Part shown: positions 730 through 34,301 of the stretch, one piece after another
Layout of the letters: every line of letters begins with the position of its first letter
Position numbering within the stretch: the stretch's first letter is position 1
Assembly (NCBI GenBank): GCA_030950365.1
Contig: JAUZRQ010000019.1
Span: 1-34,301 of the forward strand
Origin: Candidatus Zhuqueibacterota bacterium
GTDB taxonomy: Bacteria > Zhuqueibacterota > Zhuqueibacteria > Zhuqueibacterales > Geothermadaptataceae
Reading direction: 5' to 3'
Length of the DNA: 34,301 nucleotides
Program-made: the position numbers and the translations under genes
The notes under the pieces: generated by a model
The model's database searches: none
The model's input: the letters and a program-made list of their open reading frames with translations, nothing else
What the model was told of the DNA's origin: nothing

Positions 730-883
730 CCGTCCCAGGTGTAACCTGGGACGGAAATAAACAAAAGAAGCTTCGCTTCGAAAAGCAGCTGCTCCAATGG
801 CAGCTCAAAAAGCGCTATGCCGAAGCAAAGCTTCTGCGAATTCCTTCCGTCCCAAATCCAATTTGGGACGGAGAAATGGAAGG
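730..883 (+). repeat. Right REP-like repeat unit (complete)
   Basis: This is the complete unit. Hairpin one pairs CCGTCCCAGGT (730-740) with ACCTGGGACGG (744-754) around a 3-nt loop. Hairpin two pairs CCGTCCCAAAT (847-857) with ATTTGGGACGG (861-871), again with a 3-nt loop. Between them sits the inner inverted repeat, about 766-780 against 821-836. Positions 744-883 match 10-148 with a few substitutions and one extra base. It lies just after the transposase stop and before hypF, and its translation adds a false N-terminus to the hypF frame. Confidence 0.85.
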
Positions 884-894
884 AAAATTTTGAT

Positions 895-1022
895 CTCACG
901 CAGAGCCGCGGAGAGCGCCGTTTTTTCTACATTGAATCCTCTACGATCCCCCCGTCTCTGCGAGAGCGTAAAGCCGTTTTTTCCTATTCGTTTCTCTCTG
1001 TGTCCTTCGTGACTTCGTGGTT
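895..1022. repeat. Dispersed repeat with self-complementary CGCAGAG-type arms, upstream of hypF
   Basis: The stretch has a CGCAGAGCCGCGGAGAGCGC-like arm (about 897-920). An inverse arm, GTCTCTGCGAGAGCG (about 953-968), follows, then a TCCTTCGTGACTTCGTGG segment (about 1002-1020). The same three modules recur before hypC and, in part, around hypD, hypE and korB. No coding sense is visible. The function is unknown; it may be a small non-autonomous element. Confidence 0.6.
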
Positions 1023-1032
1023 GGATATTTCT

Positions 1033-3306: not shown

Positions 3307-3480
3307 AACGGATGATGCGGATGGACACGAATTATTAAAAATCTCTCGCAGAGGTGCAGAGAGCGCTGTTGGTTTCACACAAAATCCCCTGCGATCTCTG
3401 CGTCTCCGCGAGAGAAGAAAATTGCATCATTTCTCATGCCAATTTAAATTCCTTTGTGCTCTTTGTGCCTTTGTGGTCAA
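3295..3480. repeat. Composite dispersed repeat between hypF and hypC
   Basis: There are three modules in order. An ACACGGATAAAACGGATGATGCGG-like segment (about 3297-3320) overlaps the hypF stop. Paired CGCAGAGGTGCAGAGAGCG (about 3346-3364) and TCTCTGCGTCTCCGCGAGA (about 3394-3413) arms could fold together. A TTTGTGCTCTTTGTGCCTTTGTGG segment (3452-3475) completes it. The same modules occur at 895-1022, 4921-4947, 6184-6241, 7370-7396 and 11063-11180. Nothing else is visible in this 206-bp gap except the hypC ribosome site. Confidence 0.6.
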
Positions 3481-3512
3481 TAAAATTTGAACCCTAAACG
3501 AAAGGAATCGCC

Positions 3513-3812
3513 ATGTGCCTTGCCATTCCTGGAAAAGTCATTGAAATTTACGAAGAGAACGGCCTGAAGATGGGCAAACTGGACTACGCCGGCACCGTGA
3601 ATGTCGCCTGTCTCGAATACGTGCCGGAGATCAAAATCGGCCAGTACGCCATGGTGCATGCCGGTTTTGCCATCAGCATCGTCGATGAAGAAGAAGCCCA
3701 GCGCACCTATGCTGTCTGGGATGAGCTTGTGCAGGCGGCCGCCGAGGAAGGGACGGATATCTTCGGCATGCCCTTCGAAGACGAACCGCCCAAGCCGGAG
3801 GACAAAAAATGA
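3513..3812 (+). CDS. hypC: Hydrogenase maturation chaperone HypC/HybG
   Basis: The 99-residue protein begins MCLAIPGKV, the defining N-terminus of HypC. Cys2 is the residue that binds the Fe(CN)2CO unit and partners HypD. The conserved His lies in [11 protein letters not shown] (H49). An AAAGGA ribosome site precedes the ATG. HypC forms a complex with HypD, receives cyanide from HypE and delivers the iron centre to the hydrogenase large-subunit precursor. Its stop overlaps the hypD start by four bases (ATGA), so the two are translationally coupled. The last 20 or so residues are an acidic, proline-rich tail, slightly longer than in many family members. Confidence 0.96.
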
Positions 3813-4909
3813 AATACCTGGATGAATACCGCAATCCCGAGATCGCCCGGAAAATCGTGGAAGAGCTGCATGCCGTGACCAAGCACAACTGGGTGATCAT
3901 GGAAGTCTGCGGCGGCCAGACGCACTCCATCATCAAAAACGGCATCGACAAGATCATTCCGCAGCAAATCGAGCTGGTGCACGGTCCGGGTTGCCCGGTG
4001 TGTGTGACGCCTCTGGAGCAGATCGACAAGGCCATTGCCATTGCCTCGCGGCCGGATGTGATTTTCACCTCGTTCGGCGACATGCTGCGTGTGCCCGGCT
4101 CCGAAAAAGACCTGTTCATGGTCAAATCCGAAGGCGGCGACGTACGCATCGTCTATTCGCCGCTGGATGCGGTGAACATCGCCCGCGAAAATCCGGACAA
4201 AAAAGTCGTGTTTTTTGCCGTCGGCTTCGAGACCACCGCGCCGAACAACGCCATGGCCGTGTGGCAGGCGCATCGCGAGGGGCTGAAAAATTTTTACCTG
4301 CTGGTGTCACACGTGCTGGTGCCACCGGCCATGCGGGCGCTGCTCAGCTCACCCAACAACCGCGTGCAGGGCTATCTCGCCGCCGGACACGTGTGCACGG
4401 TCATGGGCTGGGAGGAGTACATCCCCATCGCCGAGGAGTACAAGGTTCCCATCGTGGTGACCGGCTTCGAACCGGTGGACATCCTCGAAGGCATCCTCAT
4501 GGTGGTGCAACTGCTGGAGCGGGGAGAGGCGAAAGTAGAGAATCAGTATTCACGGGTGGTGCGCCGCGAGGGCAACCGGCCGGCGCAGGAGCTCATCCAG
4601 CGCGTGTTCGAAATCGCCGACCGCAAGTGGCGCGGCATTGGTGAGATTCCGGCCAGCGGCCTGCGGTTGCGGGAAGAATTCCGCGAACACGATGCGGAGT
4701 TAGCCTTCGGCATGGGCGAAATCCAGGTGGAAGAACCGCCGGAATGCATCAGCGGGCTGGTGCTGCAGGGGCTGAAGAAGCCATACGAGTGCGAGGCCTT
4801 CGGCAAGCAGTGCACGCCGCAAACCCCGCTCGGCGCCACGATGGTCTCCGCCGAAGGCGCCTGTGCGGCGTATTTCAATTACAGCCGGCATGAAGAAAGC
4901 GCGGGGTGA
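3809..4909 (+). CDS. hypD: Hydrogenase maturation protein HypD
   Basis: HypD is the [4Fe-4S] scaffold on which, with HypC, the Fe(CN)2CO group is assembled. The 366 residues match the family length. Visible signatures are CGGQTHSI (C34), [10 protein letters not shown] (C62, C65), the central [10 protein letters not shown] segment and a CTVMGWEEY segment. The C-terminal cluster-binding region holds cysteines in [15 protein letters not shown] and [11 protein letters not shown]. The start overlaps the hypC stop by four bases. Downstream the operon is broken by a repeat fragment and a two-gene insertion before hypE. No truncation or missing key residue is seen. Confidence 0.97.
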
Positions 4910-4920
4910 GATTTTGGGAA

Positions 4921-4947
4921 CCGCGGAGAACGCTAAGACCGCAGAGA
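4921..4947. repeat. Fragment of the CGCAGAG-type dispersed repeat after hypD
   Basis: The string CCGCGGAGAACGCTAAGACC followed by GCAGAG matches one arm of the repeat found before hypF and hypC. It starts about 10 bp after the hypD stop, close to where the cluster is interrupted by the Phd-like/DUF3800 pair. Confidence 0.5.
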
Positions 4948-5014
4948 TTGGTTGGAATACTGCCCAAATGCAACAAAATTTGCAAATCATTTCAATTGAA
5001 TAGAAAATAATTAA

Positions 5015-5215
5015 ATGGTAACGACCATGCTGACAATCAGGGATCTCAATGTCCGGTACATCACGGATAAAAATGGGAAAAAGACTCAAGTTATATTGGA
5101 CTTGAAAGATTTCGAACAGCTTTTGGAGGACCTCCAAGATTTGGCCGCTGTGGTCGAAAGACGTGATGAAACGCGCGTTCCACATGCAGCAATTAAAAAA
5201 TTGCTTCAAAGTTAG
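5015..5215 (+). CDS. Small antitoxin-like protein (Phd/YefM-type resemblance)
   Basis: This 66-residue ORF has the pattern of short antitoxin-like proteins: a beta-rich start (VRYITDKNGKKTQVILDL), then an acidic helix (FEQLLEDLQDLAAVVERRDE) and a basic C-terminus. The resemblance to Phd/YefM-type antitoxins is by eye, and no DNA-binding fold is proved. Two in-frame starts are possible, 5015 and 5027 (MLTIRDL); neither has a strong ribosome site. It lies 63 bp before a DUF3800 gene in the same direction, so it may be that protein's partner. It is AT-rich compared with hypD and hypE, which suggests insertion into the hyp cluster. Confidence 0.6.
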   Translation: MVTTMLTIRDLNVRYITDKNGKKTQVILDLKDFEQLLEDLQDLAAVVERRDETRVPHAAIKKLLQS

Positions 5216-5278
5216 CAATTCAAATTTATTTACTGATTGGACAAATAAGCGCTTGATTTTCTAAGGAGATTCTACCTA

Positions 5279-6046
5279 ATGTTTTTAATGTATGTGGATG
5301 AAAGTGGTGACATTGGTGTGGAAAGAAGCCCAACAAATTATTTCATCTTGAGTGCAATCGTTTTTCATGAATTAAGATGGATGTCTCTTTTAAACAGCCT
5401 GATTGACTTTCGACGCCAACTTAGAGATGCAAAAGGATTAAAATTAAGGGAGGAAATACATGCTACAAATTTCGCAAATCGGCCCGGTGATCTAAGACGC
5501 ATCAAACGCAATGACCGAATTGATATCTTAAAAAAATGCATAGATTGGTTGAAGAATCAGCCTGACATCAATATTATTACGGTCGTTTGTAGAAAAGCAA
5601 ATAGGTCCAAAGAAGAGGTGTTTATAAAGAGCTGGCAAGCCCTGATTCAAAGATTTGAGAATACGATTCGCCATCGCAATTTTAATGGTCCCCTAAATCC
5701 AGATGATAAAGGTTTAATTTTACCAGATATTACAGATGACAATAAATTGACTCAATTGGTTCGCAAAATGCGTCGGTTTAATCCAATTCCTCATTCAAGG
5801 TTATTATATTCTGGTGGTTACCGTAATTTGCCTTTAGATTATATAATCGAAGACCCTGTTTTTAGAAACTCGAAAAAATCATTTTTTCATCAAATGGTGG
5901 ATGTCGTTTCTTACTGTGCGAAACAGCTTTATGAACCTAACAAATATATGAGGAAAAAAGGCGGGCATCGGTTTTATCAGCGTCTTGAACCAGTGCTTGT
6001 AAAACAGGCATCAACTCTACATCCGTTGGGAATCGTAGAAATATAA
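5279..6046 (+). CDS. DUF3800 domain protein
   Basis: The 255-residue protein opens with MYVDESGDIG, the hallmark of DUF3800, a family predicted to have an RNase H-like fold with acidic catalytic residues. Other family-like segments are YFILSAIVF (about 20-30), an EIHATN segment near residue 60 and a conserved C-terminal stretch with FFHQMVDVVSYCAKQLYEP. A clear AAGGAG (5263-5268) fixes the start. DUF3800 genes are frequent in mobile and defence-type neighbourhoods, but the biochemical role is not established. Here it follows a small antitoxin-like ORF and ends at a terminator, forming a self-contained AT-rich cassette between hypD and hypE. A toxin or nuclease role is inference. Confidence 0.8.
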   Translation: MFLMYVDESGDIGVERSPTNYFILSAIVFHELRWMSLLNSLIDFRRQLRDAKGLKLREEIHATNFANRPGDLRRIKRNDRIDILKKCIDWLKNQPDINIITVVCRKANRSKEEVFIKSWQALIQRFENTIRHRNFNGPLNPDDKGLILPDITDDNKLTQLVRKMRRFNPIPHSRLLYSGGYRNLPLDYIIEDPVFRNSKKSFFHQMVDVVSYCAKQLYEPNKYMRKKGGHRFYQRLEPVLVKQASTLHPLGIVEI

Positions 6047-6053
6047 AAAAAGA

Positions 6054-6069
6054 GCCGGCTTTCGCCGGC
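6054..6069 (-). terminator. GC-rich hairpin with A-run, possible minus-strand terminator
   Basis: GCCGGC (6054-6059) pairs with GCCGGC (6064-6069) around a TTTC loop. A run of A upstream (about 6044-6051) reads as U on the minus strand. It adjoins the plus-strand terminator at 6075-6117, so the pair may insulate in both directions. Confidence 0.45.
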
Positions 6070-6074
6070 CCGGG

Positions 6075-6117
6075 GGAATCCTACTCCAGGTTCTAGACCT
6101 GTTTCGGATTCCTTTTT
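6075..6117 (+). terminator. Rho-independent terminator after DUF3800
   Basis: GGAATCC (6075-6081) pairs with GGATTCC (6106-6112). An inner CAGGT (6087-6091) and ACCTG (6097-6101) stem lies within it, and five Ts (6113-6117) follow. It begins 29 bp after the DUF3800 stop and separates that cassette from hypE. Confidence 0.7.
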
Positions 6118-6183
6118 AGAATAAATGATTGAATAACAAAAAGCAAGAATTTTCATAAAAGATACAAGTGGCACGTAAAAAAT

Positions 6184-6241
6184 TCTCTACGCCCTCGGCG
6201 GTTTAAATTCAAATGCTTTGTGTTCTTCGTGTCTCTGTGGC
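6184..6241. repeat. Dispersed repeat fragment upstream of hypE
   Basis: CTACGCCCTCGGCGG (about 6187-6201) and TTTGTGTTCTTCGTGTCTCTGTGG (6217-6240) match the arm and tail modules seen before hypF and hypC. An ATG at 6213 inside it opens a frame into hypE and would add a false N-terminus beginning MLCVLRV. Confidence 0.55.
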
Positions 6242-6266
6242 AAACCCAAAATCATGGAAACCGGTC

Positions 6267-7352
6267 ATGAGCAAAACCATTCCCCCTGATACCTTCGGCC
6301 AGTGCCCGCTACCCATCACGCAGTACGATACCGTCCAGCTCGGCCACGGCAGCGGCGGCAAAATGATGAATGATCTCATCAGCAAGCTCTTCGTATGGGC
6401 TTTCGACAATCCCATGCTGCAAGACATGGACGACCAGGCGGTGCTGGACATTCCCTCGCCGGATGGAAAAACCGGCAGCGTGCGTCTGGCCCTCAGCACC
6501 GATTCCTTCGTCGTCGATCCGATCTTTTTTCCGGGAGGCAACATCGGTGAGCTGGCGGTGAACGGCACGGTGAACGACGTGTGCATGAGCGGCGCCCGGC
6601 CGCTGTATTTGAGCGCCGGGTTCATCATCGAAGAAGGCTTTTCGCTGGATGAATTGCGGCGGATCGTCGAATCCATGCGCGATGCCGCCCGCCGCGCCGG
6701 CGTGGCCATCGTTACCGGCGACACCAAGGTGGTGCACAAGGGCAAAGGCGACAAGGTGTTCATCAACACCGCTGGCATTGGCATTATCGAGCATTCGTAT
6801 GCCATTGGCGCCAAACACATCCGCCCCGGGGATATCATCCTGCTGAGCGGCACCATCGCCGATCACGGCATTGCCATTCTCTCCAAACGCGAAGGGCTGG
6901 CCTTCGAGACCTCCATCGAGAGCGACACCGCGCCGCTGAACGACCTGGTGCGCGTCATTCTCGACGCCGGCGGCGAGGCGGTGCACGCCATGCGCGATCC
7001 CACCCGCGGCGGACTGGCCGCCACTCTGAACGAATTCGCCGATGCAGCCGGGGTGGGCATCCGCATCCGTCAGGATCGCATTCCCATCCATCCGGCCGTC
7101 GAAGGGGCCTGCGAGATGCTGGGCCTCGACCCGCTGTATGTAGCCAATGAAGGCAAGGTGGTGGTTGTGGTGGCGCGCGACAAAAGCCAGGCGGTGCTGG
7201 AAGCCATGCGGCAGCATCCGCTGGGCCAGCAGGCCGCCATCATCGGCGATATCACCGAAGAAAATGCCGGCCGGGTCTCCATGCTCACGCGCATCGGTAG
7301 CTGGCGCATGGTGGACAGGATCGTCGGCGAGCAATTGCCGCGGATTTGTTGA
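6267..7352 (+). CDS. hypE: Carbamoyl dehydratase HypE, hydrogenase maturation
   Basis: HypE dehydrates the thiocarboxamide formed on its C-terminal Cys by HypF, yielding the thiocyanate that supplies CN to HypC-HypD. The 361-residue protein belongs to the PurM-like ATP-binding family. Seen are QLGHGSGGKMMNDLI (about 24-38), a DMDDQAVL segment, the NGTVNDVCMSGA motif, VTGDTKVVHKGKGD, and the terminal PRIC whose Cys is the modified residue. I place the start at 6267 (MSKTIPPD); the frame from 6213 runs through repeat DNA. A diverged second copy of its last 41 codons (7230-7352) occurs at 8208-8330. It is separated from hypD by an inserted cassette of about 1.3 kb. Confidence 0.96.
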   Translation: MSKTIPPDTFGQCPLPITQYDTVQLGHGSGGKMMNDLISKLFVWAFDNPMLQDMDDQAVLDIPSPDGKTGSVRLALSTDSFVVDPIFFPGGNIGELAVNGTVNDVCMSGARPLYLSAGFIIEEGFSLDELRRIVESMRDAARRAGVAIVTGDTKVVHKGKGDKVFINTAGIGIIEHSYAIGAKHIRPGDIILLSGTIADHGIAILSKREGLAFETSIESDTAPLNDLVRVILDAGGEAVHAMRDPTRGGLAATLNEFADAAGVGIRIRQDRIPIHPAVEGACEMLGLDPLYVANEGKVVVVVARDKSQAVLEAMRQHPLGQQAAIIGDITEENAGRVSMLTRIGSWRMVDRIVGEQLPRIC

Positions 7353-18610: not shown

Positions 18611-20335
18611 TTATGAGGCTCGTTCTTTCAATTTTGAATCGAGCTTAGCCTTGTAAGGCGGATTCAGATTCAGGCGGGCCACCATGTGGTACACCTTGAA
18701 GGCTTTTTCATCGTTCCTATCCAGCATGAGATAGATTCCGGCCAACTCGGCATAGAGCCGAATGCGCTCGGGATTCTTCTCCAGTATTTTTTCATAAATC
18801 CGCGCCGCTGAAGCATAGTTACCACGCAGGATATGCATCTTCGCTCGGGAAGTTGGCGAAAAAGCCAGAAAGGTCAGCCCGAAAAAGACCACACCACATG
18901 CAAAAGCCACCACTCCCAATTGCCAGGGCGGTATATTTTGCCAGGGTTTTGTTTTCGAAGCTGCAAGATCGGTGTTTTGAACCACAGGCTTTTTCTCTTT
19001 CATTTCCATTTCGGCGAGGGCCCCTTCGTATGGCTCCACATCCACGGCTTCGCCAATATCCAGTTCGGCGGTTTGCGCCAGCGGCTCGGATTCGGCCTCT
19101 GCAGCCACCACGCCCTGCTCGGCCTTTCTGGCGGCTTCCAGCAAGGATTGCACCTCGCGGTAGCGGGGATTGATTCGCGCCACCGTCTCAAATTTTTTGA
19201 TCGCGGCGGAATAATCCTTAAGCTGCATGGCCAGTAGGCCTTCACTGTAATTAATTTCCGCCTTCCGTGTCAGGTCTGCCTGTTTGGCCTTTCGGCGGGC
19301 CTGTTGCCGCTTCTGTTTTGCCAGTTTGTTCTTGGGGTCCATTTCCAGGACACGGCTGAAGGCCAACTCGGCCCGGTCCCACATCTTGTGCCGCATGGCG
19401 ATGGTGCCTTCGTTCAAATACCGCGCAATGGCTTGCTGGCGGCGCTGCTTATCCAACAGCTCGCGGTACCGTGCCAGTTTGGAATCCGCGTCTTTGAATC
19501 CCGGATTTTCTTCGAGCAACTGCTGCAAGATTTCCACCGCCTGCTGATATTGTTCTTCGCTGGCCAGCTTCAGCGCTTTTTCGTACAATATCTCGTTGAT
19601 TTCCTGCTTTGTATTTTCCTTCAAAATGGAGTCATATGTCGCGATTCGTTCGGCGACATCCCTGAAGTGCGGTTGGATCTGCTGCAGTTGCTGCAAATAA
19701 CTTCTTGCGGATTGATAATCGCGCCGCCGTTCCGCCGACAGCGCCGATTGATAGAGTTTGCGGAGCTCAATTTCTGTACGGCAGTTTTCAATCATGCGGC
19801 GGATTTCGGTCTGATTGGTCCCCTCAAATTGCATCGCATTTTTCAGCGCTTCAACGGCTTCCTCATATCGTGCCTGATCGTAGAGCAAACCACCCAGTTC
19901 GGCCCAGAGCTTGCCCATCTGGCGAGGGTCGGACGTCAATTTCAAACATTGACGCAGGCTTTGTTCGCTTTCGCGGAGCTTGCCAAGCCTTAGGCGTACG
20001 CGAAACAGTTCATAATGCACCGCTAACTTTAAATTGCCAGGAGAGTACGCAAACCGGGTCTGCGAAGCGCGCTCGAAATAGCGCTCCGCCTGCCGATACT
20101 CGCCCAATTGCTTGTAGGCGATGCCCAGGTTGTAAAGCGCCTCGGTGAAATTGGGATCGAATTTCAAGGCTCGTTCATAGGCATCGATTTTTTCCAAAGC
20201 CGTTTTCGCATTCACGCCAACCTTGAACCAAGAAATAGCCTGGCGACGATCATTCTGAGAATAGCCTTCCCCCAATGAAAAAGTGGACATGACCGCTACC
20301 AACAACAAGACAGGTTTCACCTTCTTCTGGTTCAT
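18611..20335 (-). CDS. TPR-repeat protein with signal peptide and one internal membrane segment
   Basis: The 574-residue protein has a Lys-rich start and a hydrophobic signal (VKPVLLLVAVMSTFSLG). About 400 residues of TPR motifs follow, for example NFTEALYNLGIAYKQLGEYR and EEAVEALKNAMQF. A low-complexity acidic linker (about 415-465) leads to one membrane segment (GVVAFACGVVFFGLTFLAF, about 474-492) and a further TPR pair at the C-terminus. If both hydrophobic segments are used, most TPRs are periplasmic and the last are cytoplasmic. The start at 20335 has a GGGAGG site; the longer frame to 20524 overlaps the receptor gene. It follows the TonB-receptor gene by 61 bp, so the two are probably co-transcribed. 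The molecular role is unknown; a scaffold for the receptor is one possibility. Confidence 0.82.
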   Translation of the reverse strand: MNQKKVKPVLLLVAVMSTFSLGEGYSQNDRRQAISWFKVGVNAKTALEKIDAYERALKFDPNFTEALYNLGIAYKQLGEYRQAERYFERASQTRFAYSPGNLKLAVHYELFRVRLRLGKLRESEQSLRQCLKLTSDPRQMGKLWAELGGLLYDQARYEEAVEALKNAMQFEGTNQTEIRRMIENCRTEIELRKLYQSALSAERRRDYQSARSYLQQLQQIQPHFRDVAERIATYDSILKENTKQEINEILYEKALKLASEEQYQQAVEILQQLLEENPGFKDADSKLARYRELLDKQRRQQAIARYLNEGTIAMRHKMWDRAELAFSRVLEMDPKNKLAKQKRQQARRKAKQADLTRKAEINYSEGLLAMQLKDYSAAIKKFETVARINPRYREVQSLLEAARKAEQGVVAAEAESEPLAQTAELDIGEAVDVEPYEGALAEMEMKEKKPVVQNTDLAASKTKPWQNIPPWQLGVVAFACGVVFFGLTFLAFSPTSRAKMHILRGNYASAARIYEKILEKNPERIRLYAELAGIYLMLDRNDEKAFKVYHMVARLNLNPPYKAKLDSKLKERAS

Positions 20336-20396: not shown

Positions 20397-22865
20397 TCAA
20401 AATCCCGTTTCCAACCCCGCCGTAATGACTCTTCCCATGGTATCTGCAAATGGAAACTGATTCTGTGAGTTATTGAACAGGTCGGTAATGGAAATCCCAA
20501 TACGTGCTTTGGGATTAAACGCATAACCTACATACAGATTCACCGTGGCATAATCCGGTACTACGACAGGCGCGGGCATCTCGCCAGGCCGTGCAATGTT
20601 CCAAACCGTTTTGCTGGTATAATAAGCCCACAGGTTGACAAAAAGGCCCCGGCTGGGATTCCGGTATAACCCAAACATCAGTTTGGTTGCCGGCGAGGCC
20701 TCCTGGAAACCCAAGAACCTTGCATTATCGTTGATTTTTTGATAGGCATAGGTGAAATTGATTTGCCATTTGTTGGACAACCGCAATCCCACTTCCAGCT
20801 CGCCGCCGGTGTTGGACGATTCGCCGCCATTGGAAAAGGAGATGGTGGTGGAATCCTGAGGCGCGAATAAAATGAAATCCGACAGCTTTTGGTGGTAAAT
20901 CTCGAGTCCGATATACATTCGCTCCTGCATCCAGATGCCACGATAACCGAACTCATACGAAGTCGCCTGTTCCGGCAGGAGGTTGGTATTGCCCACCACT
21001 TTAGCGCTGCCAAATTGCGAAACCACAAAGTACTCCACCAGCGATGGCGACCGGAACCCGCGGGAGACGCTGAGCCGGAAACTATGATTCGGTTGCGGCG
21101 AATAGAGCATCGCAGCGCGTAGAGGGATCTCCGTGGTCGTCAGCGGTTTCGAATCGATCCGCCCGCCAAGGGTGAGCGAGAGCTCCTGCGAAAAATCAAT
21201 CACATCCTGCAGGTAAAAGGAATATTGCGTGATGGTTTTGCGCTGATCCGCCGTGACATTGCCTTTAAACGCATCCTGGCGGTAAACGAGTCCGGCGACC
21301 AGGGTTTGATGCTGGCCGAGCTGGCTGGCAAATTCCAGTGAATTGTGAAACAGGGAATTGCGGATTTGCACCAGAAACGGCACGCCCCGGCCCACCGAGT
21401 TAAACCAGATATCATTATAATAGCTCTGCAGTTTGAATGGCCCCATCTGCAAATTTACTTTGGCATAATCCAATTTGTGTTCCGAGAACACCGGCATGGC
21501 GAAAAAGCCCCATGGCAGAAGTTCATTCTGGAACGCACGACCGCGGCCGACGTCCACCGAAAACCGGCGGTCGAGCCCGAATTCCTTTTCGATATAAAGC
21601 CGGCCTCTGCGGCTTTGCAGGTCGAAATCTCTGGTGTGTGCCGGATTGCCAAGATTGGTGCCCACCAGGCTCAAAATCGCTCCCCAGTCGCCTTTGTGGA
21701 AGTTGTAATTGATTTCCGAAACAAAGGTGTTCTCCTTGCTTCCCAGGTAGGATCGCACGCTCAGCCCGTTGGTCAGCCCCGGCCGTTTGGTGACGATATT
21801 GACCACACCGCTTACGGCATTGGCCCCGTACAGCGAACCGGACGGGCCGCGAATGATTTCGATGCTCTGGATATCCTGCAGGCCAATGGGAAACGTGTTC
21901 CAGAACACCGTGCCAAAAAAAGTCGTGTAAACGATCCGGTTATCGACCAAAACCAGGGTCCGGTTGGAGTACAGGCGATTGTATCCGCGCGGGTTGATAT
22001 TGAGGTTGCCCGTATTGGTGGCAAACACATCCACGCCGGGGAGGAAGCGGAAGAGGTCGGCAAGCCCCAGATGGCCGTATTGCTGCAACTTTTCTTCCTG
22101 AATCGCCGAAATGGCCGACGGCGCCTGCATGATGTTCTGCAGCGTGCGCGTCGCAGAGATCACGCTGATTTCGCCAAAGCTAAAGGCATCCAAATCCGAT
22201 TCCAGGGTAGCACCATCGGCGGTGTTTCGAGTTTCATCGGGTGCGGAGCGATCCGGCACCGGCACCGCCTCCCTCGAGACCAATGTTTCCCGCGGTTCCG
22301 GTTTCGGATACAGCCAAAAGCTCTGCTCCTTCCCCTGCGTGATTTTAAAGGTCTTGTTGTTAATCATCAAAACGTTGGCATTGCAATGCTCAATGAGGAT
22401 GTTTTCCAGCACGGGATCGCCGTTGCTCACGTACACCGGATTGAAGCAATAGCGAATGACGGCATATCGGATGATTAGCTTGCTCTGTTCGCCCTGCGCG
22501 AAAAATCGGATGCCGCTCCAGTCAAACTTGGTGGGTTTTCGCTGGCCCGATCGGTTGTTGCGGGCAAATTGTGAATCATGAACGGAGGTGAAAACAATTC
22601 TATTGCCGGATGTGCCTTCGGCGATGAGGCTGCCATATACGACGATTCGATATTTGCCAGTAAAAAGCAACGTCACGCCCGGCTCTATGATCAACGTCTG
22701 ATCCGCCGGAACTTCAACATCCCCTTTGACAACGTACGGACTTTCTTCCACGGTCCATTTGCCGAATTGCTGACCTTCTACTTCCCCCGCCTGAACCGAA
22801 TCAACCATCAGAATTCCTGTCGAAATACTGATACCGCCCAGAAGCATTGGTATCCATTGACGCAT
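20397..22865 (-). CDS. TonB-dependent receptor with N-terminal beta-helix-like domain
   Basis: After a signal peptide (about 1-27, ending near VQAGE), residues about 30-190 resemble a right-handed parallel beta-helix (pectin-lyase-like) domain. It has the stretch VPADQTLIIEPGVTLLF, and then GSLIAEGTSGNRIVFTS. A proline-rich acidic linker precedes a normal plug (FSFGEISVISATR, GLADLFRFLPGVDV, IEIIRGPSGSLYGANAVSGV) at about 245-370. An outer-membrane barrel ends with a terminal aromatic (TAGLETGF). Receptors of this class import siderophores, cobalamin or glycans using TonB. The start is the ATG at 22865, with AGGAGG seven bases upstream. The N-terminal domain is where many receptors carry a carboxypeptidase-like domain, so its replacement is unusual. 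The ligand is unknown. Confidence 0.9.
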   Translation of the reverse strand: MRQWIPMLLGGISISTGILMVDSVQAGEVEGQQFGKWTVEESPYVVKGDVEVPADQTLIIEPGVTLLFTGKYRIVVYGSLIAEGTSGNRIVFTSVHDSQFARNNRSGQRKPTKFDWSGIRFFAQGEQSKLIIRYAVIRYCFNPVYVSNGDPVLENILIEHCNANVLMINNKTFKITQGKEQSFWLYPKPEPRETLVSREAVPVPDRSAPDETRNTADGATLESDLDAFSFGEISVISATRTLQNIMQAPSAISAIQEEKLQQYGHLGLADLFRFLPGVDVFATNTGNLNINPRGYNRLYSNRTLVLVDNRIVYTTFFGTVFWNTFPIGLQDIQSIEIIRGPSGSLYGANAVSGVVNIVTKRPGLTNGLSVRSYLGSKENTFVSEINYNFHKGDWGAILSLVGTNLGNPAHTRDFDLQSRRGRLYIEKEFGLDRRFSVDVGRGRAFQNELLPWGFFAMPVFSEHKLDYAKVNLQMGPFKLQSYYNDIWFNSVGRGVPFLVQIRNSLFHNSLEFASQLGQHQTLVAGLVYRQDAFKGNVTADQRKTITQYSFYLQDVIDFSQELSLTLGGRIDSKPLTTTEIPLRAAMLYSPQPNHSFRLSVSRGFRSPSLVEYFVVSQFGSAKVVGNTNLLPEQATSYEFGYRGIWMQERMYIGLEIYHQKLSDFILFAPQDSTTISFSNGGESSNTGGELEVGLRLSNKWQINFTYAYQKINDNARFLGFQEASPATKLMFGLYRNPSRGLFVNLWAYYTSKTVWNIARPGEMPAPVVVPDYATVNLYVGYAFNPKARIGISITDLFNNSQNQFPFADTMGRVITAGLETGF

Positions 22866-23578
22866 AAAAATCCTCCTAACCATTCGTCCTGCTATTGGCA
22901 CCTGTTCAACCTCCAGCAAAATTTCACATCGCCTTCTGGTGCCTCCGTAAGGTGGACACCGGAAGATCGGTATATCATGCTCAAAATATCCCGGGAATGA
23001 AATTCAACTTTTTCCGCCAGTTCACCTTTGCATCTTTATAAATTACGAAAAAGCCGGAATGACCAGATTGCTGGTATGGTTGGGTGGTTAACGGTATTTT
23101 TGTCTAAATTTTATTTATTAATACCTTTAAAAAATTTCAATGCGAAACTATTAATGAAATTTAATATTCAGCCAGCACTTTACCGGCTGTTTGTATAGCA
23201 GTTTTCGAAAATTCGAGGAACTCGTCTTGTAAGCTCCGGGCAGTTATGCCAGAGGGGTTGCAATCTTTCAAACATCGACTATTCATCCCTTCGATGGTAA
23301 ATCCTGATTCTTGCTTTGACCATCTATAATTCTTCTCTGATTTAACATACTCAGAAAATTCAATGAACCGTTCAAATTTTGTTTGCAAAAACAAACATTA
23401 AAATTTAAATTGGCTTTAAATGTTCATTCTCTCAATTTCCTATTTCCAACTCATGCCCCCTGCATTGGAAATTTGTTAGAATTGGAACATTTGAGATAAA
23501 TAAAACTTGACAGAAATCGGGAACTTGGCTATTTTTGCGAAACATTAATTGGCGCATTCATTTGCTGCAAGTGGAGTG
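22866..23578. other. Divergent intergenic region between receptor and KaiC-like genes
   Basis: This AT-rich 713-bp gap separates two divergent transcripts. It holds the KaiC-like promoter at 23507-23535. A minus-strand frame at 23161-23394 has only a TTG start right after a stop and no ribosome site, so I do not call it a gene. No riboswitch or tRNA fold was recognised. Confidence 0.5.
23507..23535 (+). promoter_or_regulatory. Sigma70-type promoter of the KaiC-like gene
   Basis: TTGACA (23507-23512), a 17-bp spacer and TATTTT (23530-23535) put transcription start near 23542. That supports translation from the ATG at 23579 rather than the TTG at 23549. Confidence 0.65.
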
Positions 23579-25039
23579 ATGTCAATAAATGCGAAAGACC
23601 GCCTCCCCAGCGGGATCCCCGGCCTTGATGAGATCATTCAGGGTGGCTTCATTCAAAATCGAAGTTACCTGATCCGGGGGCTTCCTGGAAGCGGTAAAAC
23701 AACATTAGGGTTGCACTTTCTGTGTTCGGCCAGTGCGAAGAATAATGAAAAATCACTCTACATCACTCTTTCTGAAAATGAGAACATCATCCGCGACAAC
23801 GCCGGCCGGCTCGGGTTCGATTTATCCCGTGTGCATTTTCTGGACCTGAGTCCAACATCTGCTCATTTTTCTGGTTCAAAAGATTACACTATATTCTTCC
23901 CCGCGGAAGTTGAACAGGAAGAGACCACGCAAAAAATCGTTACAGCGGTTAAAAAACTCAAACCCAAACGCGTCTTTATCGACGCCATTACCCAGCTTCG
24001 CTATCTCACGGTAGATACCTACCATTACCGCAGGCAAGTGCTCTCCTTTTTGCGTTTCCTGATCGAATCCGGGGCCACGGTTCTGCTGACCTCCGAGGGT
24101 AGCCCCGAAGCCCCTGATGAAGACCTGCAGTTTCTCAGCGACGGCGTCATCCAGCTCGACTTTTCTTCAGCCGGCCGCAGCATCTCCATCAAAAAATTCC
24201 GCGGCTCCGACTTCCGCTCCGGTCCGCATGCCATGGCCCTGACGAATCGCGGCATGGTGGTCTATCCCAAACTCATCCCGGAAGATTTTGGCCGCGAATT
24301 CATTCCTGAGACTATGTCCTCCGGCGTGCCGGAAATCGACCGGCTTCTGTACGGCGGCCTGGAGCGCGGCACGGTGACGATCATCAGCGGCCCGAGCGGG
24401 GTGGGCAAAACGTCCCTGGGCATGCAATTCGTCAAAGAAGCCGCCTCCCACGGCGAATACGCGTCGGTATATATTTTCGAAGAAAGCGTGGATACGCTTA
24501 TGCATCGTTCCGAGTCGATTGGCCTGTCGGTCAACGATTTGCTCAAACGGGGCACGCTCAACATCACGCATATTGAGCCGCTGAAATACCTGCCCGATCA
24601 ACTGGCCAATCTCGTTCGCCGCGAAGTGGAGCAAAAAGGCGCCCGCATCGTCATGCTCGACAGCATCGCGGGCTACAAACTGTCGCTGCTGGGCGGCGAT
24701 TTGGCTCAGCACCTGCATGCCCTGTCAAAATACCTCTCCAATATGGGGGTGACGGTGCTGCTCATCAATGAAGTAGAAACCATTGCCGGCGGCATCTTCA
24801 AAGCCACCGAAGCCGGCATCAGTTATCTGGCGGACAACATCATTTTTATGCGATATCTGGAGTACCGTGGCCAGTTGCGTCGCGCCATCGGCGTGCTAAA
24901 AAAACGGTTGACCGATTTCGAACGGACGCTACGTGAAATCGCCATCACCGAAAAAGGCATCCAGGTCGGCGCGCCGCTCACCAACTTGCGCGGCATCTTG
25001 CAGGGCATGCCAGACTGGCCCGCAGGCGAAGCTTCATGA
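23579..25039 (+). CDS. Double-domain KaiC-like RecA-superfamily ATPase
   Basis: The 486-residue protein has two KaiC domains. The first has RLPSGIPGLDEIIQGG and Walker A GLPGSGKT (34-41). The second has SSGVPEIDRLLYGG, Walker A GPSGVGKT (271-278), Walker B VMLDSI, and the C-terminal KaiC signature around MRYLEYRGQLRRAIGVLKKR. Cyanobacterial KaiC autophosphorylates in T-D-S-H-I-S-T (T426, S431, T432). The equivalent here is T410-E-A-G-I-S415-Y416, so the last Thr is Tyr. Catalytic Glu pairs follow each Walker A region in the EEs at about residue 310 (IFEES) and the first-domain TLSEN. ATP start 23579 is backed by the promoter. No KaiA or KaiB is in view; kinase genes follow about 660 bp on. 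Confidence 0.9.
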   Translation: MSINAKDRLPSGIPGLDEIIQGGFIQNRSYLIRGLPGSGKTTLGLHFLCSASAKNNEKSLYITLSENENIIRDNAGRLGFDLSRVHFLDLSPTSAHFSGSKDYTIFFPAEVEQEETTQKIVTAVKKLKPKRVFIDAITQLRYLTVDTYHYRRQVLSFLRFLIESGATVLLTSEGSPEAPDEDLQFLSDGVIQLDFSSAGRSISIKKFRGSDFRSGPHAMALTNRGMVVYPKLIPEDFGREFIPETMSSGVPEIDRLLYGGLERGTVTIISGPSGVGKTSLGMQFVKEAASHGEYASVYIFEESVDTLMHRSESIGLSVNDLLKRGTLNITHIEPLKYLPDQLANLVRREVEQKGARIVMLDSIAGYKLSLLGGDLAQHLHALSKYLSNMGVTVLLINEVETIAGGIFKATEAGISYLADNIIFMRYLEYRGQLRRAIGVLKKRLTDFERTLREIAITEKGIQVGAPLTNLRGILQGMPDWPAGEAS

Positions 25040-25696
25040 GCGTGATTCGGCGATCGGGTTCAGGAAACCGATGCCGCCTCCATGCCGAAAAGGCGGACAT
25101 TTTTTTTCGTTCCAATCCCAAAATCGGTGATAAATCGGCCATTGCTTCGGCTTTTCTTAGAGGCCTGTCCGAAGCTCGCAAGCATGACACCTGCACAACA
25201 TGCATGTTTGGCCCCTCCTGAGTACTTCGGTCGGGAGTTCATCATTCCTTTTGCAGAAGACGGGAAACGATCGGCTTGCTGGTGAAGGCAAAATCGCAAC
25301 CTCCTGAAGTTTATCCCATACTCGATGCACGACTCGTCGAAATACCAGATTGACGGTTGGGTTGATTTAGCGGCCAGGCAAAGTTTGCAAGAGCAAAAAT
25401 TTAATTTTTGCAAATTTTGAAAAATGGGCGATTTTAGATTGTAATTTGTTCTTTGTTTTATTAAATTTCGCCGGCTCAGATGGGGAAAGAAGGCTTTTCC
25501 GTCTGCGGAGTGTGTTGGCAGCTCTATCTATTTTACCTGAAAAGCAATTCTGTTGTGCACTCATCGACTCTTCCGGGCTTGTGTTGGTTTGCTATGGTGG
25601 TTTCATTTCCCTTCTCTGTTGCCGCTGTACCCAGGCTCCTTACTCCCGGCTTCCAGTTCTATCAAATCGAGCGATCACTATTGACATGCACAGGTC
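25040..25696. other. Intergenic region between KaiC-like and histidine kinase genes
   Basis: No recognisable gene is seen in 657 bp. It contains a near-perfect AT-rich palindrome, GCAAAAATT (25393-25401) and AATTTTTGC (25403-25411), with T between. A small open frame (25446-25700) overlaps the next start, but its sequence resembles no family and it has no ribosome site. The gap suggests the kinases have their own promoter, though I see no clear one. Confidence 0.4.
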
Positions 25697-26746
25697 ATGA
25701 AGTGTATCCTTTTGCTGTTTAAATATCAAAAAAACGGTATTCTACTGCGGGGGGCGCTCCAGAACGATTATCAGGTCATTCTCGATTTCACAGGACACAA
25801 CATCGATCGTCCCTGCGATCTTATTATTATCGACGCCCCCTCGCTATTGCAACATGCCGGTGACCTAGCCGCCCGCGTGAAAATGGAGGCACCGCTTTAT
25901 TTACCGGTTCTGCTGCTCTCGCATAGCCGCAGCATCCGTTACCGGCTCTCTCAATTCAAGGTTCCCATCAGCGGCCTGCTGTACCCTCCGGTTGAAAAAT
26001 TCGAGCTGATGCTTACCATTGAGAACCTGCTGCATACGCGCGATCTATCCATTGCCCTGAAAAAACGTAACGAAGACCTCGAATCGTTCATTCACCTGAT
26101 GAGCCACGATTTACGGGCTCCTCTACGCGCGATCAAGGGCTTCTCAGAGGCCATCCTCGAAGACAACCTGGCTAGCGGCCAACCGGAACTGCAGGCCTAC
26201 CTCAATCGGATCCGGCGCTCATCGGAAGAAATGGAAGAGCTGATTAGCTCGATTTTGAATTATCTGAATTGCGACCGCCGCACGGTGCAGAAAACCTCGG
26301 TATCCCTATCCTCGCTGATCACCGATGTGGTCAATGGCTTGCGCTACGAAATCGAAAAAAGCCACACGCAAATCGATATTCAGGTAAGTTCGGACGAAGT
26401 CGCAGTGGATCCTTTTCTGGCCAAAACCGTGCTGCAAAATCTGCTTCACAATGCCATCAAGTTCGTTCCGCCCAAACGACGACCGCGCATTCGTATCACC
26501 GGGCAGCGCAATCAAAGCGAATACATCGTCAAAATTCATGACAACGGCATCGGCATTCCCAAACAATTTGCACAGCAAATTTTCCAACCATTTAACCGGT
26601 TGCATGGTGTGGAAGCCTATCCGGGCGTAGGACTGGGGCTGGCGGTTGTCAAACGTGCTATGGAAATCATGGGGGGGGATGTCGGCGTCCATTCGCAGCG
26701 TGGCAAAGGCAGTGAATTCTGGCTGAAATTCAAAAGGAGACCATAG
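25697..26746 (+). CDS. Sensor histidine kinase with N-terminal pseudo-receiver
   Basis: The 349-residue kinase starts with a receiver-like fold (about 1-112). It keeps one Asp (D46 in LIIIDAPS) but lacks the acidic pair after the first strand and has PPVE where the conserved Lys would be. HisKA follows with SHDLRAPLRAIKGF (H137), then HATPase_c with N box LLHNAIKF, G1 HDNGIGIP, and G2 GVGLGLAVVKRAM. There is no membrane segment, so it acts in the cytoplasm. It stops just before the next kinase (TAG then ATG), so the two are coupled. SasA, the KaiC-linked kinase in cyanobacteria, has a KaiB-like N-terminus instead; linkage to KaiC here is by gene order only. Confidence 0.9.
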   Translation: MKCILLLFKYQKNGILLRGALQNDYQVILDFTGHNIDRPCDLIIIDAPSLLQHAGDLAARVKMEAPLYLPVLLLSHSRSIRYRLSQFKVPISGLLYPPVEKFELMLTIENLLHTRDLSIALKKRNEDLESFIHLMSHDLRAPLRAIKGFSEAILEDNLASGQPELQAYLNRIRRSSEEMEELISSILNYLNCDRRTVQKTSVSLSSLITDVVNGLRYEIEKSHTQIDIQVSSDEVAVDPFLAKTVLQNLLHNAIKFVPPKRRPRIRITGQRNQSEYIVKIHDNGIGIPKQFAQQIFQPFNRLHGVEAYPGVGLGLAVVKRAMEIMGGDVGVHSQRGKGSEFWLKFKRRP

Positions 26747-29062
26747 ATGCGGTTTCTGATCATCGACGACAACCCGAGCGATCGGCAACTGATCATCCGC
26801 AAAATCAAACAGGCGATCGGCCACATCCATATTCTGGAGGTGTCTTCCAGAAAAGACTGGAAACAACTCTATAAATCCGGTGAGTTTGATCTTGTGATCA
26901 CCGACTATTTTCTGCGTTGGCAGGATGGTTTGCAAATTTTGCGCGAAATTCGAAAACGCGATCCCTATTTGCCTGTGATCATGGTCACCGATTCCGGCGA
27001 CGAAAAGGTTGCTGTCGAAGGCATGAAATTGGGGCTGAGCGATTACATTAAAAAAAGCGAACTGAATCAGTTGCCGGAGCTGATCAAAAAAAGCCTGAAG
27101 AATTCGGCCCTGCAAAAAAAACGCGATGAGGCGCACAAAACGATCTCGGAACTGGCCACGCTTTTCGGACAACTGACCGAGCAAATTTCTCAGATTTTCT
27201 GGCTGCGCGATATTCAAACCGGGCAGTGGATTTTCGTGAGCATGGCTATCGCATCCATGTGGGGCCTGCCGATCAAGGAGGTGTACCGCTCGCCGCAAAA
27301 ATTCTTTGACCGAATTCATCCCGAAGATCGGGAGTTTGTTCGCAACACCTATCATCAAAATCCCAAAGCGAGCTTCGATATTCAATACCGGATCGTCAAG
27401 TCCGACGGCAGTATCCGTTGGATGCGCGATCGCGGTATGCCAGTCGTTGCAGATTCCTGTCAACCTATAAAAATGGCCGGCATGATCGAAGACGTGACCG
27501 AATTAAAAGAAGCCCTCGACCGGCTGCGCGTCAGCGAGCAACGCTACAAAAATTTCTTTTTAGAAGACCTGACCGGTGATTTCACCCTTACGCCCGAGGG
27601 CATCATCACCGATGTCAACCCTGCCTTCCTAAAAATTTTTGGTTTAAAGACAGCCACCGATGTTTTGAATCGCTCCATCAAGGAGCTGTTCTGGAGACCG
27701 GATGACATGGATTATTATCTGGAAAGGCTGCGACAGGGCGAAAAAATCACCGATCTGGAAATCAATATGCGGGATATCAGCGGAAATCCGCTGTACCTCA
27801 TTGCCAACTTCATTGGCAAATATAACGGGAACGGCTGTCTGACGCAAATTTTCGGCTATTTATTCGATATTACGCAAAAAAAAGTGCTCGAACAACAATT
27901 GCTGCAGTCACAAAAAATGGAAGCCATTGGCCAGCTCGCCGGCGGCATTGCCCACGATTTCAACAACATCCTGTCGGCCATCATCGGCTACACCGAAATG
28001 GCCAAAAGTGATATTCCACCCAACAGCCGGGCGCAGGATGATCTTGATCAGGTCCTGGTGGCCTCCTACCGAGCCCGGGACATCGTCCGGCAGATCCTCA
28101 CTTTCAGCCGTGAAACCCAAAAGGACTACCGGCCGGTAAAGCTGGAAGACCTAGTCAAAAATTGCATCAAGCTTCTGCGGGCCGGGCTCCCCAGCACCAT
28201 CGATATCCGGCTGAATATGGAAAACGATCTGGGTTATGTGCTCGGGGATTCGACACAACTGCATCAGATGCTGATGAACATCTGCACCAATGCGTTCTAT
28301 GCCATGAAAGAAAACGGCGGCACGCTGACCATCGAGGTGCAGAAAGTCCAAGAGGCTATGAATTATGACCCAACCAAAACCGCAGGCATAGTCCTGAAGC
28401 AGGATTGCATCAAAATCAAAATTCAGGATACCGGCATCGGCATTGATCCGGCGAACGTCAGCCGCATTTTCGATCCATTCTTCACGACGAAACCCGTGGG
28501 TGAAGGCACCGGCCTGGGCCTGTCGGTGGTGCACGGCATCGTCAAAAGCATGCAGGGTGATATCTACGTGACCAGCGAGCCTGGCAAAGGTACGACGTTT
28601 ACTATCATTCTGCCGCGTATGGAATCGGCTCAGGTGGACGATCACGCCGCGTTCCATCAGGATATACCCGCCGGGCAGGAGCACATTCTGCTGGTGGATG
28701 ACGAAAAGGCATTGACACACATCGGCAAACGACTTCTGGAACGGCTCGGGTACCATGTCGTGGAGGCCAACTCCGGCTATGAAGCCCTATTCCACTTTCA
28801 GAAAAACCCGCACCGGTTCAATCTGGTGATCACCGATTCCACCATGCCGAAAATGACCGGTCTGGAATTGGTGCAAAACATTTTAAGCATTCGTTCCGAT
28901 ATTCCGATTATTCTGATGAGCGGTTATAAAGAAGAAAAACTGACCAAAAAAGCTCAGGAACTGGGGGTAAGTGAGTTTATCATGAAACCCATTTTACCCT
29001 CCCATCTGGCAAAGGTGGTTCGAAACGTTTTGGACACGTATCGCAGGAAAGAAATTGTCTAA
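26747..29062 (+). CDS. Hybrid sensor kinase REC-PAS-PAS-HisKA-HATPase-REC
   Basis: The domain order in 771 residues is as follows. A receiver (1-120) has DD at 7-8, D53 in ITDYFLRW and a Lys in DYIKK. PAS one (about 135-250) has WIFVSMAIASMWG and HPEDREF with a PAC-like RIVKSDGSIRWMRDRG. PAS two (about 260-385) has GIITDVNPAFLKIFG. HisKA (about 390-455) has GGIAHDFNNILSAIIGY, phospho-His near 402. HATPase has TGIGIDPANV and GEGTGLGLSVV. The terminal receiver (about 645-765) has LVITDSTMPKMTGLEL. No membrane segment is seen, so it is a cytoplasmic phosphorelay hub. It starts immediately after the upstream kinase and overlaps the response regulator by eight bases. Confidence 0.92.
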   Translation: MRFLIIDDNPSDRQLIIRKIKQAIGHIHILEVSSRKDWKQLYKSGEFDLVITDYFLRWQDGLQILREIRKRDPYLPVIMVTDSGDEKVAVEGMKLGLSDYIKKSELNQLPELIKKSLKNSALQKKRDEAHKTISELATLFGQLTEQISQIFWLRDIQTGQWIFVSMAIASMWGLPIKEVYRSPQKFFDRIHPEDREFVRNTYHQNPKASFDIQYRIVKSDGSIRWMRDRGMPVVADSCQPIKMAGMIEDVTELKEALDRLRVSEQRYKNFFLEDLTGDFTLTPEGIITDVNPAFLKIFGLKTATDVLNRSIKELFWRPDDMDYYLERLRQGEKITDLEINMRDISGNPLYLIANFIGKYNGNGCLTQIFGYLFDITQKKVLEQQLLQSQKMEAIGQLAGGIAHDFNNILSAIIGYTEMAKSDIPPNSRAQDDLDQVLVASYRARDIVRQILTFSRETQKDYRPVKLEDLVKNCIKLLRAGLPSTIDIRLNMENDLGYVLGDSTQLHQMLMNICTNAFYAMKENGGTLTIEVQKVQEAMNYDPTKTAGIVLKQDCIKIKIQDTGIGIDPANVSRIFDPFFTTKPVGEGTGLGLSVVHGIVKSMQGDIYVTSEPGKGTTFTIILPRMESAQVDDHAAFHQDIPAGQEHILLVDDEKALTHIGKRLLERLGYHVVEANSGYEALFHFQKNPHRFNLVITDSTMPKMTGLELVQNILSIRSDIPIILMSGYKEEKLTKKAQELGVSEFIMKPILPSHLAKVVRNVLDTYRRKEIV

Positions 29063-33169: not shown

Positions 33170-33736
33170 TTATTTCAGCAAAATATCTTTAATTGCGAGA
33201 TGGAAATCCGGAAATGCATGTGGAGAGATCTCATCACCTGTGACAAACTTTTCAACGTGCATAAATCGATCGCCTGATGGATCAATATACCGCTCTACCA
33301 CCTCCTGCGTCAAATCAATTAACCAGACTTCACGGATGCCGCTCCTGGCATAAAGTTGTATTTTAACATTGCGATCGATATGCTGAGAGGTTTCTGCCAC
33401 CTCGATGAGCCAATATACGTCCTCTGCTGAAGGATGTCTGAATTGATACATATCTTGTCGAGGCTTTAAAATAGATACATCTGGCTGAGGTTCGGAATCA
33501 GGCTCAAGTAGAACTGGATTTTGAATGGCCAGGACAATCTTTTGCCGTAAATTCAGCGGCGATAGAAGCCGCGTTAGGTTATTCACACACGCCGCATGCC
33601 GGCTACTGATTGGACTCATTTCCACGATCTCCCCTGATAGCAACTCCACCCGGTCATCCTCCTGCAAAATTCCCCAACGTATCATCGCGTGGTATTCATC
33701 CACGGTAAATTTGCGCGTGGTTACGGCAAGACTCAT
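33170..33736 (-). CDS. Uma2 family restriction endonuclease-like protein
   Basis: This is the intact copy of 188 residues: MSLAVTTRKFTVDEYHAMI opening, GEIVEMSPI, EPQPDVSILKPR (D), YWLIEVAETSQ (E), DRNVKIQLYA (K) and a GIREVWLIDL strand. These give the PD-(D/E)xK-like core of Uma2 (DUF820). Family members are predicted nucleases whose function is not settled; they often form tandem arrays. The ATG at 33736 lies about 12 bp from the next gene's end at 33749. It sits between two paralogues in the same direction, so the three probably arose by tandem duplication. Confidence 0.9.
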   Translation of the reverse strand: MSLAVTTRKFTVDEYHAMIRWGILQEDDRVELLSGEIVEMSPISSRHAACVNNLTRLLSPLNLRQKIVLAIQNPVLLEPDSEPQPDVSILKPRQDMYQFRHPSAEDVYWLIEVAETSQHIDRNVKIQLYARSGIREVWLIDLTQEVVERYIDPSGDRFMHVEKFVTGDEISPHAFPDFHLAIKDILLK

Positions 33737-33748
33737 GTTGATATCCCT

Positions 33749-34301
33749 TTATTTCAGCAAAATGCCTTTAACAGCAAGACGGCATTCCGAAAAAGCCATC
33801 GGCGCAAGCTCATCGCCAATGGCAAATTTTTTAAAGCGTTTGTATTGATTTCCCAGAGGTTCCCAATACTGCTCAACAATCTCGTTTCTCAGATCGATTA
33901 GCCAGACTTCGGGAATGCCCGCTTGAGCATATAGCGGCAGTTTGCTCGTTTTGTCGTGGTCGATAGACGCTTCACCGATTTCGATGACCAAAATAATATC
34001 TTTGGGCTGAGGAAGATTATTTACATAAAAATCGTCACGAAACTTCAAAAGCGTCAGGTCCGGCTGTGGTTCAGAATAAGGGCTTAATTGAACCGGGTTT
34101 TGCACACTAATTCCAGCCCTCCCTCGCAATCGCGCGATAAAGCTGTCTGCCAGTTTATTCACCACAGCCGCATGGAGTTTACCAATCGGACTCATTTCCA
34201 CGATCTCCCCTGCCAAAAGCTCCACACGGTCATCCTCCTGCAAAATACCGGTCTGGATCATCGTGTGGTATTCATCCACCGTAAATTTGCGTGTGGTCAC
34301 A
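33749..34301 (-). CDS. Uma2 family restriction endonuclease-like protein (5' end cut by window)
   Basis: This is the third paralogue, 183 residues in view, reading TTRKFTVDEYHTMIQTGI, then QEDDRVELLAGEIVEMSP. Core residues are EPQPDLTLLK (D), ILVIEIGEAS (E), HDKTSKLPLYA (K) and GIPEVWLIDL. By comparison with the neighbour (MSLAVTTRKF) the true start should lie a few codons beyond the window edge; the GTG at 34300 is only an internal Val. Its sequence is diverged from the middle copy in the centre (about residues 45-110), so duplication is not recent. Confidence 0.9.
   Translation of the reverse strand, partial: VTTRKFTVDEYHTMIQTGILQEDDRVELLAGEIVEMSPIGKLHAAVVNKLADSFIARLRGRAGISVQNPVQLSPYSEPQPDLTLLKFRDDFYVNNLPQPKDIILVIEIGEASIDHDKTSKLPLYAQAGIPEVWLIDLRNEIVEQYWEPLGNQYKRFKKFAIGDELAPMAFSECRLAVKGILLK

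Follow-up and report, generated by a model that had tools for sequence, protein, structure and literature searches.

What a beta-helix could do at the periplasmic end of an outer-membrane receptor is the question raised by a gene from a genome of Candidatus Zhuqueibacterota (candidate division KSB1). The position ahead of the plug of TonB-dependent receptors is usually occupied by an STN or a CarboxypepD_reg domain (PMC6434023). In a survey of 34,893 TonB-dependent receptors, STN, CarboxypepD_reg and AMIN were the only extra N-terminal domains recognised (PMC6434023); since this survey was Pfam-based, it was blind to a beta-helix domain. We analysed a stretch of 34,301 nucleotides of contig JAUZRQ010000019.1, here called the window, for which an earlier note had proposed a right-handed beta-helix fused to a normal plug and barrel.

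The open reading frame at 20397..22865 on the minus strand is genuine and uninterrupted, and encodes one protein of 822 residues. Its ATG start at 22865 is preceded by the Shine-Dalgarno sequence AGGAGG; the mechanically assigned start, a TTG at 22919, lies further upstream. The protein begins with a signal peptide (residues 1–26, 22788..22865), recognised by eye from a short basic start, a hydrophobic core and VQA at residues 23–25. It is followed by an N-terminal domain of about 158 residues (27–184, 22314..22787), a linker predicted to be disordered (187–239, 22149..22307, pLDDT < 50), the TonB box region FSFGEISVISATRTL (228–242, 22140..22184), the plug (245–354, 21804..22133; Pfam PF07715, 6.8e-19) and the barrel, the matched part of which covers residues 483–793 (20487..21419; PF00593, 6.6e-35), all on the minus strand. 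Plug and barrel both exceed the curated cut-offs, the TonB box FSFGEISVISA ahead of the plug is supported by the sequence and by alignment with relatives, and the same genome has 12 matches to the TonB C-terminal domain (TonB_C). Judged from these domains and the TonB box in its sequence, the protein is a TonB-dependent receptor. Ahead of residue 245 Pfam gave no match. Specifically, no STN domain (PF07660) was found in the receptor at E < 1, no CarboxypepD_reg domain (PF13620/PF13715) before the plug, and no Beta_helix or NosD match above the curated cut-off for the N-terminal domain, for which no NCBIfam model was found either. The NCBIfam models closest to the barrel are all below their cut-offs and we therefore name no ligand for it; the window also has no Rfam match, and no hint at a ligand came from a riboswitch. 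Elsewhere in the window, genes for HypF, HypD and an AIR-synthase-like (HypE-like) protein of hydrogenase maturation are found at 817–7352 with a DUF3800 gene in between. A KaiC-like ATPase (plus strand), a histidine kinase and a hybrid histidine kinase are encoded at 23549–29062, starting divergently from the receptor gene, and two adjoining Uma2 family genes at 33170–34300.

The N-terminal domain is predicted with high confidence to be a right-handed parallel beta-helix. AlphaFold2 modelled residues 27–195 with a pLDDT of 94.3 and a pTM of 0.88, with short repeated strands throughout the domain. The alignment used for this prediction had 40 rows, namely the window sequence, five family members and 34 generic beta-helices from other organisms. 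When the full-length protein was predicted with five family sequences only, the mean pLDDT of the domain was still about 85, and the fold is therefore independent of the generic rows. A structure search with VIA-align returned mostly right-handed beta-helices, with Z-scores up to 8.2 and identities mostly of 5–14%, while Foldseek found nothing at E < 0.001 for the domain. The alternative that another fold would be predicted can thus be set aside, and the reading of a beta-helix ahead of a normal plug and barrel held. The family alignment (A1) has 22 invariant columns, conserved across several families. The domain shares its N-cap and coil style with secreted right-handed beta-helices (Beta_helix, NosD, pectate lyase-like), with about 27–53% identity over the matched segments. 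Whereas those proteins mostly stand alone, are longer and in some cases have a sorting tail, the helices of the present family are short (~158 residues), attached to barrels, and have their own C-terminal stretch and mostly a longer loop (residues 69–88).

The distribution of the family was determined in a phylum sample of 82 KSB1 genomes; most records of close relatives carry the name KSB1 or Caldithrix, and the relatives named in the collections are metagenome-assembled. In a scan with A1, 16 domain copies scored E < 1e-59, and these come from 12 of the 82 genomes. Generic secreted beta-helices follow at 7e-25, so that more than 30 orders of magnitude separate them from the family. Thirteen copies belong to TonB-dependent receptors and two to a plugless barrel, and one is a free beta-helix protein of 220 residues (G022:C27). 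The plugless barrel (G010:C224 and G011:C95) has neither a Pfam match nor a recognised plug and is called porin-like from its sequence alone. As the fusion recurs in 12 further receptor genes of other genomes, a separate gene mis-joined in the assembly is ruled out. Among the receptors, short ones occur in the window, G038, G048, G032 (two), G022:C1 and G044. In the six long ones the helix is followed by a CarboxypepD_reg-like segment, which is detected by Pfam between helix and plug in G007 (L034) and by sequence only in G008, G009, G010, G011 and G013. The suggestion that the helix takes the place of a carboxypeptidase-like or signalling domain was thus right in the position (PMC6434023) but not as a simple replacement: the tandem occurrence of both rules out that the helix substitutes for CarboxypepD_reg. 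Because the segment follows the helix in six receptors, the helix adds to it, and the two are separate modules.

Within the taxonomic family of the window, the helix is present in one of seven genomes, the window's own. Domain tree and barrel tree partially disagree; G022:C1 pairs with G048 in the former and with G032:C30 in the latter. Swapping of the domain between barrels is therefore possible, with most forks of the domain tree being weak. The helix occurs as a free protein as well as on two barrel types that are unrelated to each other, and therefore constitutes a module with its own function. Outside KSB1, a narrow collection scan by one peptide pattern (80 loci) found the fusion in none of 75 generic beta-helix ORFs, and literature searches for a beta-helix together with a TonB-dependent receptor returned nothing relevant. 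The fusion is real and conserved, and no earlier description of it was found in the literature searched.

The strongest hint at a partner comes from the gene neighbourhood. A TPR gene (18611..20335, minus strand) with its own Shine-Dalgarno sequence GGAGG lies 61 bases downstream of the receptor gene. It encodes a protein of 574 residues with a signal peptide, a long TPR array placed in the periplasm, a single transmembrane segment near the C-terminus and a basic, TPR-like cytoplasmic tail, as judged from Pfam TPRs and the position of the transmembrane segment. We defined the family, here named TPR-TM, through an alignment (A2) of the transmembrane segment and the cytoplasmic tail (18614..18928, minus strand), and found it in 26 of the 82 genomes. 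The conserved neighbour became apparent when all retrieved loci were compared with one another. A TPR-TM gene lies at most two genes away from 11 of the 14 testable helix copies, two of the 16 (G013 and G032:C197) being left out because they are located at contig ends. The fusion in G038 adjoins a TPR protein that is shorter and has its transmembrane segment at one end, the one in G044 is flanked by PP2C and TPR-kinase genes with no TPR-TM gene, and G032:C30 has no TPR gene nearby. The pairing recurs across the families f1, f2 and f5. A rough estimate of its probability by chance is 1e-21, the true weight of which is less because the copies were taken as independent although G007, G009, G010 and G011 are closely related. 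At four loci (L034, L035, L036 and L038), three or four TPR-TM paralogues are arrayed around one beta-helix receptor.

TPR-TM genes also adjoin receptor or porin-like genes without a helix (G007:C1, G014 and G007:C5; loci L030, L178 and L186). The receptor of G007:C1 at L030 (6939–8913), encoded in two overlapping frames beside a TPR-TM gene, is 54–63% identical to the barrel of the window. Since the pairing exists without the helix, the helix is not required for it, and may tune the link rather than make it.

A second context of TPR-TM genes are clusters of Hanks-type Ser/Thr protein kinase (STPK) genes. In 17 genomes TPR-TM genes are accompanied by STPK genes and by those for FHA, PP2C or both, and in most cases also by a TPR-kinase. 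The window's genome is among them (L155, G000:C46), with the kinase operon on a different contig from the receptor. This cluster (L155:4092–15826) and those at loci L157–L191 represent a conserved assembly of STPK, FHA, PP2C, TPR-TM and TPR-kinase genes in KSB1. At L162, L167, L187, L190 and L191 the TPR-TM gene is reduced to the transmembrane segment and the cytoplasmic tail (131–139 residues), and the one FHA protein of a cluster that was searched contains FG-GAP repeats. In G022:C27 the gene order is STPK, FHA, PP2C, beta-helix, TPR-TM, TPR-kinase; as this free helix lies inside a kinase cluster without a barrel, its companion there is the TPR protein rather than a barrel. A TPR-kinase is found in the same cluster as the fusion in G008, and the stretches read in G007, G009, G010 and G011 (g4), with TPR arrays around the fusion, contain no kinase gene. 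Among 69 distinct TPR-TM rows, 29 are near kinase, FHA or PP2C genes, 23 near a beta-helix, six near another receptor or porin-like gene and 11 near none of these. Separate clades of helix-linked and kinase-linked TPR-TM proteins were not found in a tree on 133 columns; the two are intermixed. The clusters have the same gene content as PknB-type (Hanks) clusters with FHA and PP2C. They differ in that Pfam detected PEGA and CarboxypepD_reg instead of PASTA in the one KSB1 kinase searched, and in that a beta-helix protein lies inside the cluster in two genomes.

We propose, with about even confidence, that the helix is a periplasmic docking domain which ties the receptor to the TPR adaptor encoded next door, probably for signalling. 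The helix should remain in the periplasm because the TonB box, which lies between helix and plug, must be within the reach of TonB; this supports the periplasmic location suggested in the earlier note. That note had left open whether the domain binds a polysaccharide or a protein, and the genes nearby speak for a protein as partner, namely the membrane-anchored TPR protein. This protein would be exported, hold its TPR array in the periplasm, cross the inner membrane once and end in the cytoplasmic TPR tail. A contact of the helix with the periplasmic TPRs would be the simplest link. A ligand or a TonB event at the barrel could alter this contact, and the change could be sensed in the cytoplasm through the tail and partners such as the TPR-kinases, with Hanks-type Ser/Thr kinases as the presumed output in some genomes.

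The precedent for such docking is the STN-type signalling domain, which in the same position contacts an inner-membrane anti-sigma factor (PMC11637429). STN transducers (FecA, FoxA, FpvA) with their FecR-type anti-sigma factors likewise have an additional domain in the periplasm ahead of the TonB box and pair the receptor with a single-span inner-membrane protein, and are thus our candidate for a system that works alike. In contrast to them, the domain described here has a beta-helix fold, the neighbour proposed as partner is a TPR protein, and the co-located cytoplasmic genes are in some genomes those of kinases, not of sigma factors. The receptor is not a member of the STN-type transducers because it has no STN domain and the window ORFs that were searched with Pfam include no gene for a FecR-type anti-sigma factor. 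SusC/Oar receptors also carry an extra domain before the TonB box, the CarboxypepD_reg domain or NTE; its fold, a transthyretin-like barrel of seven strands (PMC7782687), is different from the beta-helix found here.

Binding of a polysaccharide, either peptidoglycan or an imported glycan, on the periplasmic side would fit the top structural matches, which are polysaccharide lyases and hydrolases (4yz0, PL6, Z 8.2). Such matches, with Z-scores around 8 at 5–14% identity ("middling" by the tool's own scale), reflect a generic fold, besides which nothing in this analysis points to a polysaccharide. The invariant residues look chiefly structural with few polar exceptions (T67, S68, D71, D89), and it is TPR and kinase genes that are conserved nearby. 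None of the related loci compared has an equivalent of the nearby ROK kinase and repressor, and a link to a sugar locus through these genes was therefore rejected. We therefore regard polysaccharide binding as unlikely. Similarly low is the probability that the helix aids biogenesis or stability of the barrel like a chaperone, as has been considered for the NTE of SusC: SusC lacking the NTE was produced, yet growth on levan was abolished, and a role of the NTE in biogenesis or in the function of the cell was deduced from this (PMC7782687). The presence of the helix on two barrel types would agree with this, but the free copy has no barrel nearby and the close barrel relative at L030 does without the helix.

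Still less probable is that the helix confers specificity for a certain TonB or simply extends the reach over the periplasm. The 12 TonB_C matches in the genome are consistent with this explanation, as is the location of the helix, which precedes the TonB box and is followed by a flexible linker. The copies on a barrel that lacks a recognised plug, and the free copy, argue against it. That the helix is a functionless, passive mobile remnant of a secreted beta-helix protein appears very improbable. Generic secreted beta-helices sharing this N-cap are indeed common, also in the window's own genome (L007), but the conservation over several families with the 22 invariant columns and the retained neighbour argue against a remnant.

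Returning to the docking domain, we consider it possible, although rather less probable than the docking itself, that KSB1 bacteria have a new type of surface signalling, in which a helix-bearing receptor or porin and a TPR adaptor act with Hanks-type kinases, FHA and PP2C proteins as output. The conserved association of the receptor with a neighbour spanning the inner membrane suggests an undescribed route for signals from the surface to the inside of the cell. If the pairing holds, an outer-membrane receptor would be connected, in place of an anti-sigma factor, to a TPR adaptor and possibly further to eukaryotic-like kinases.
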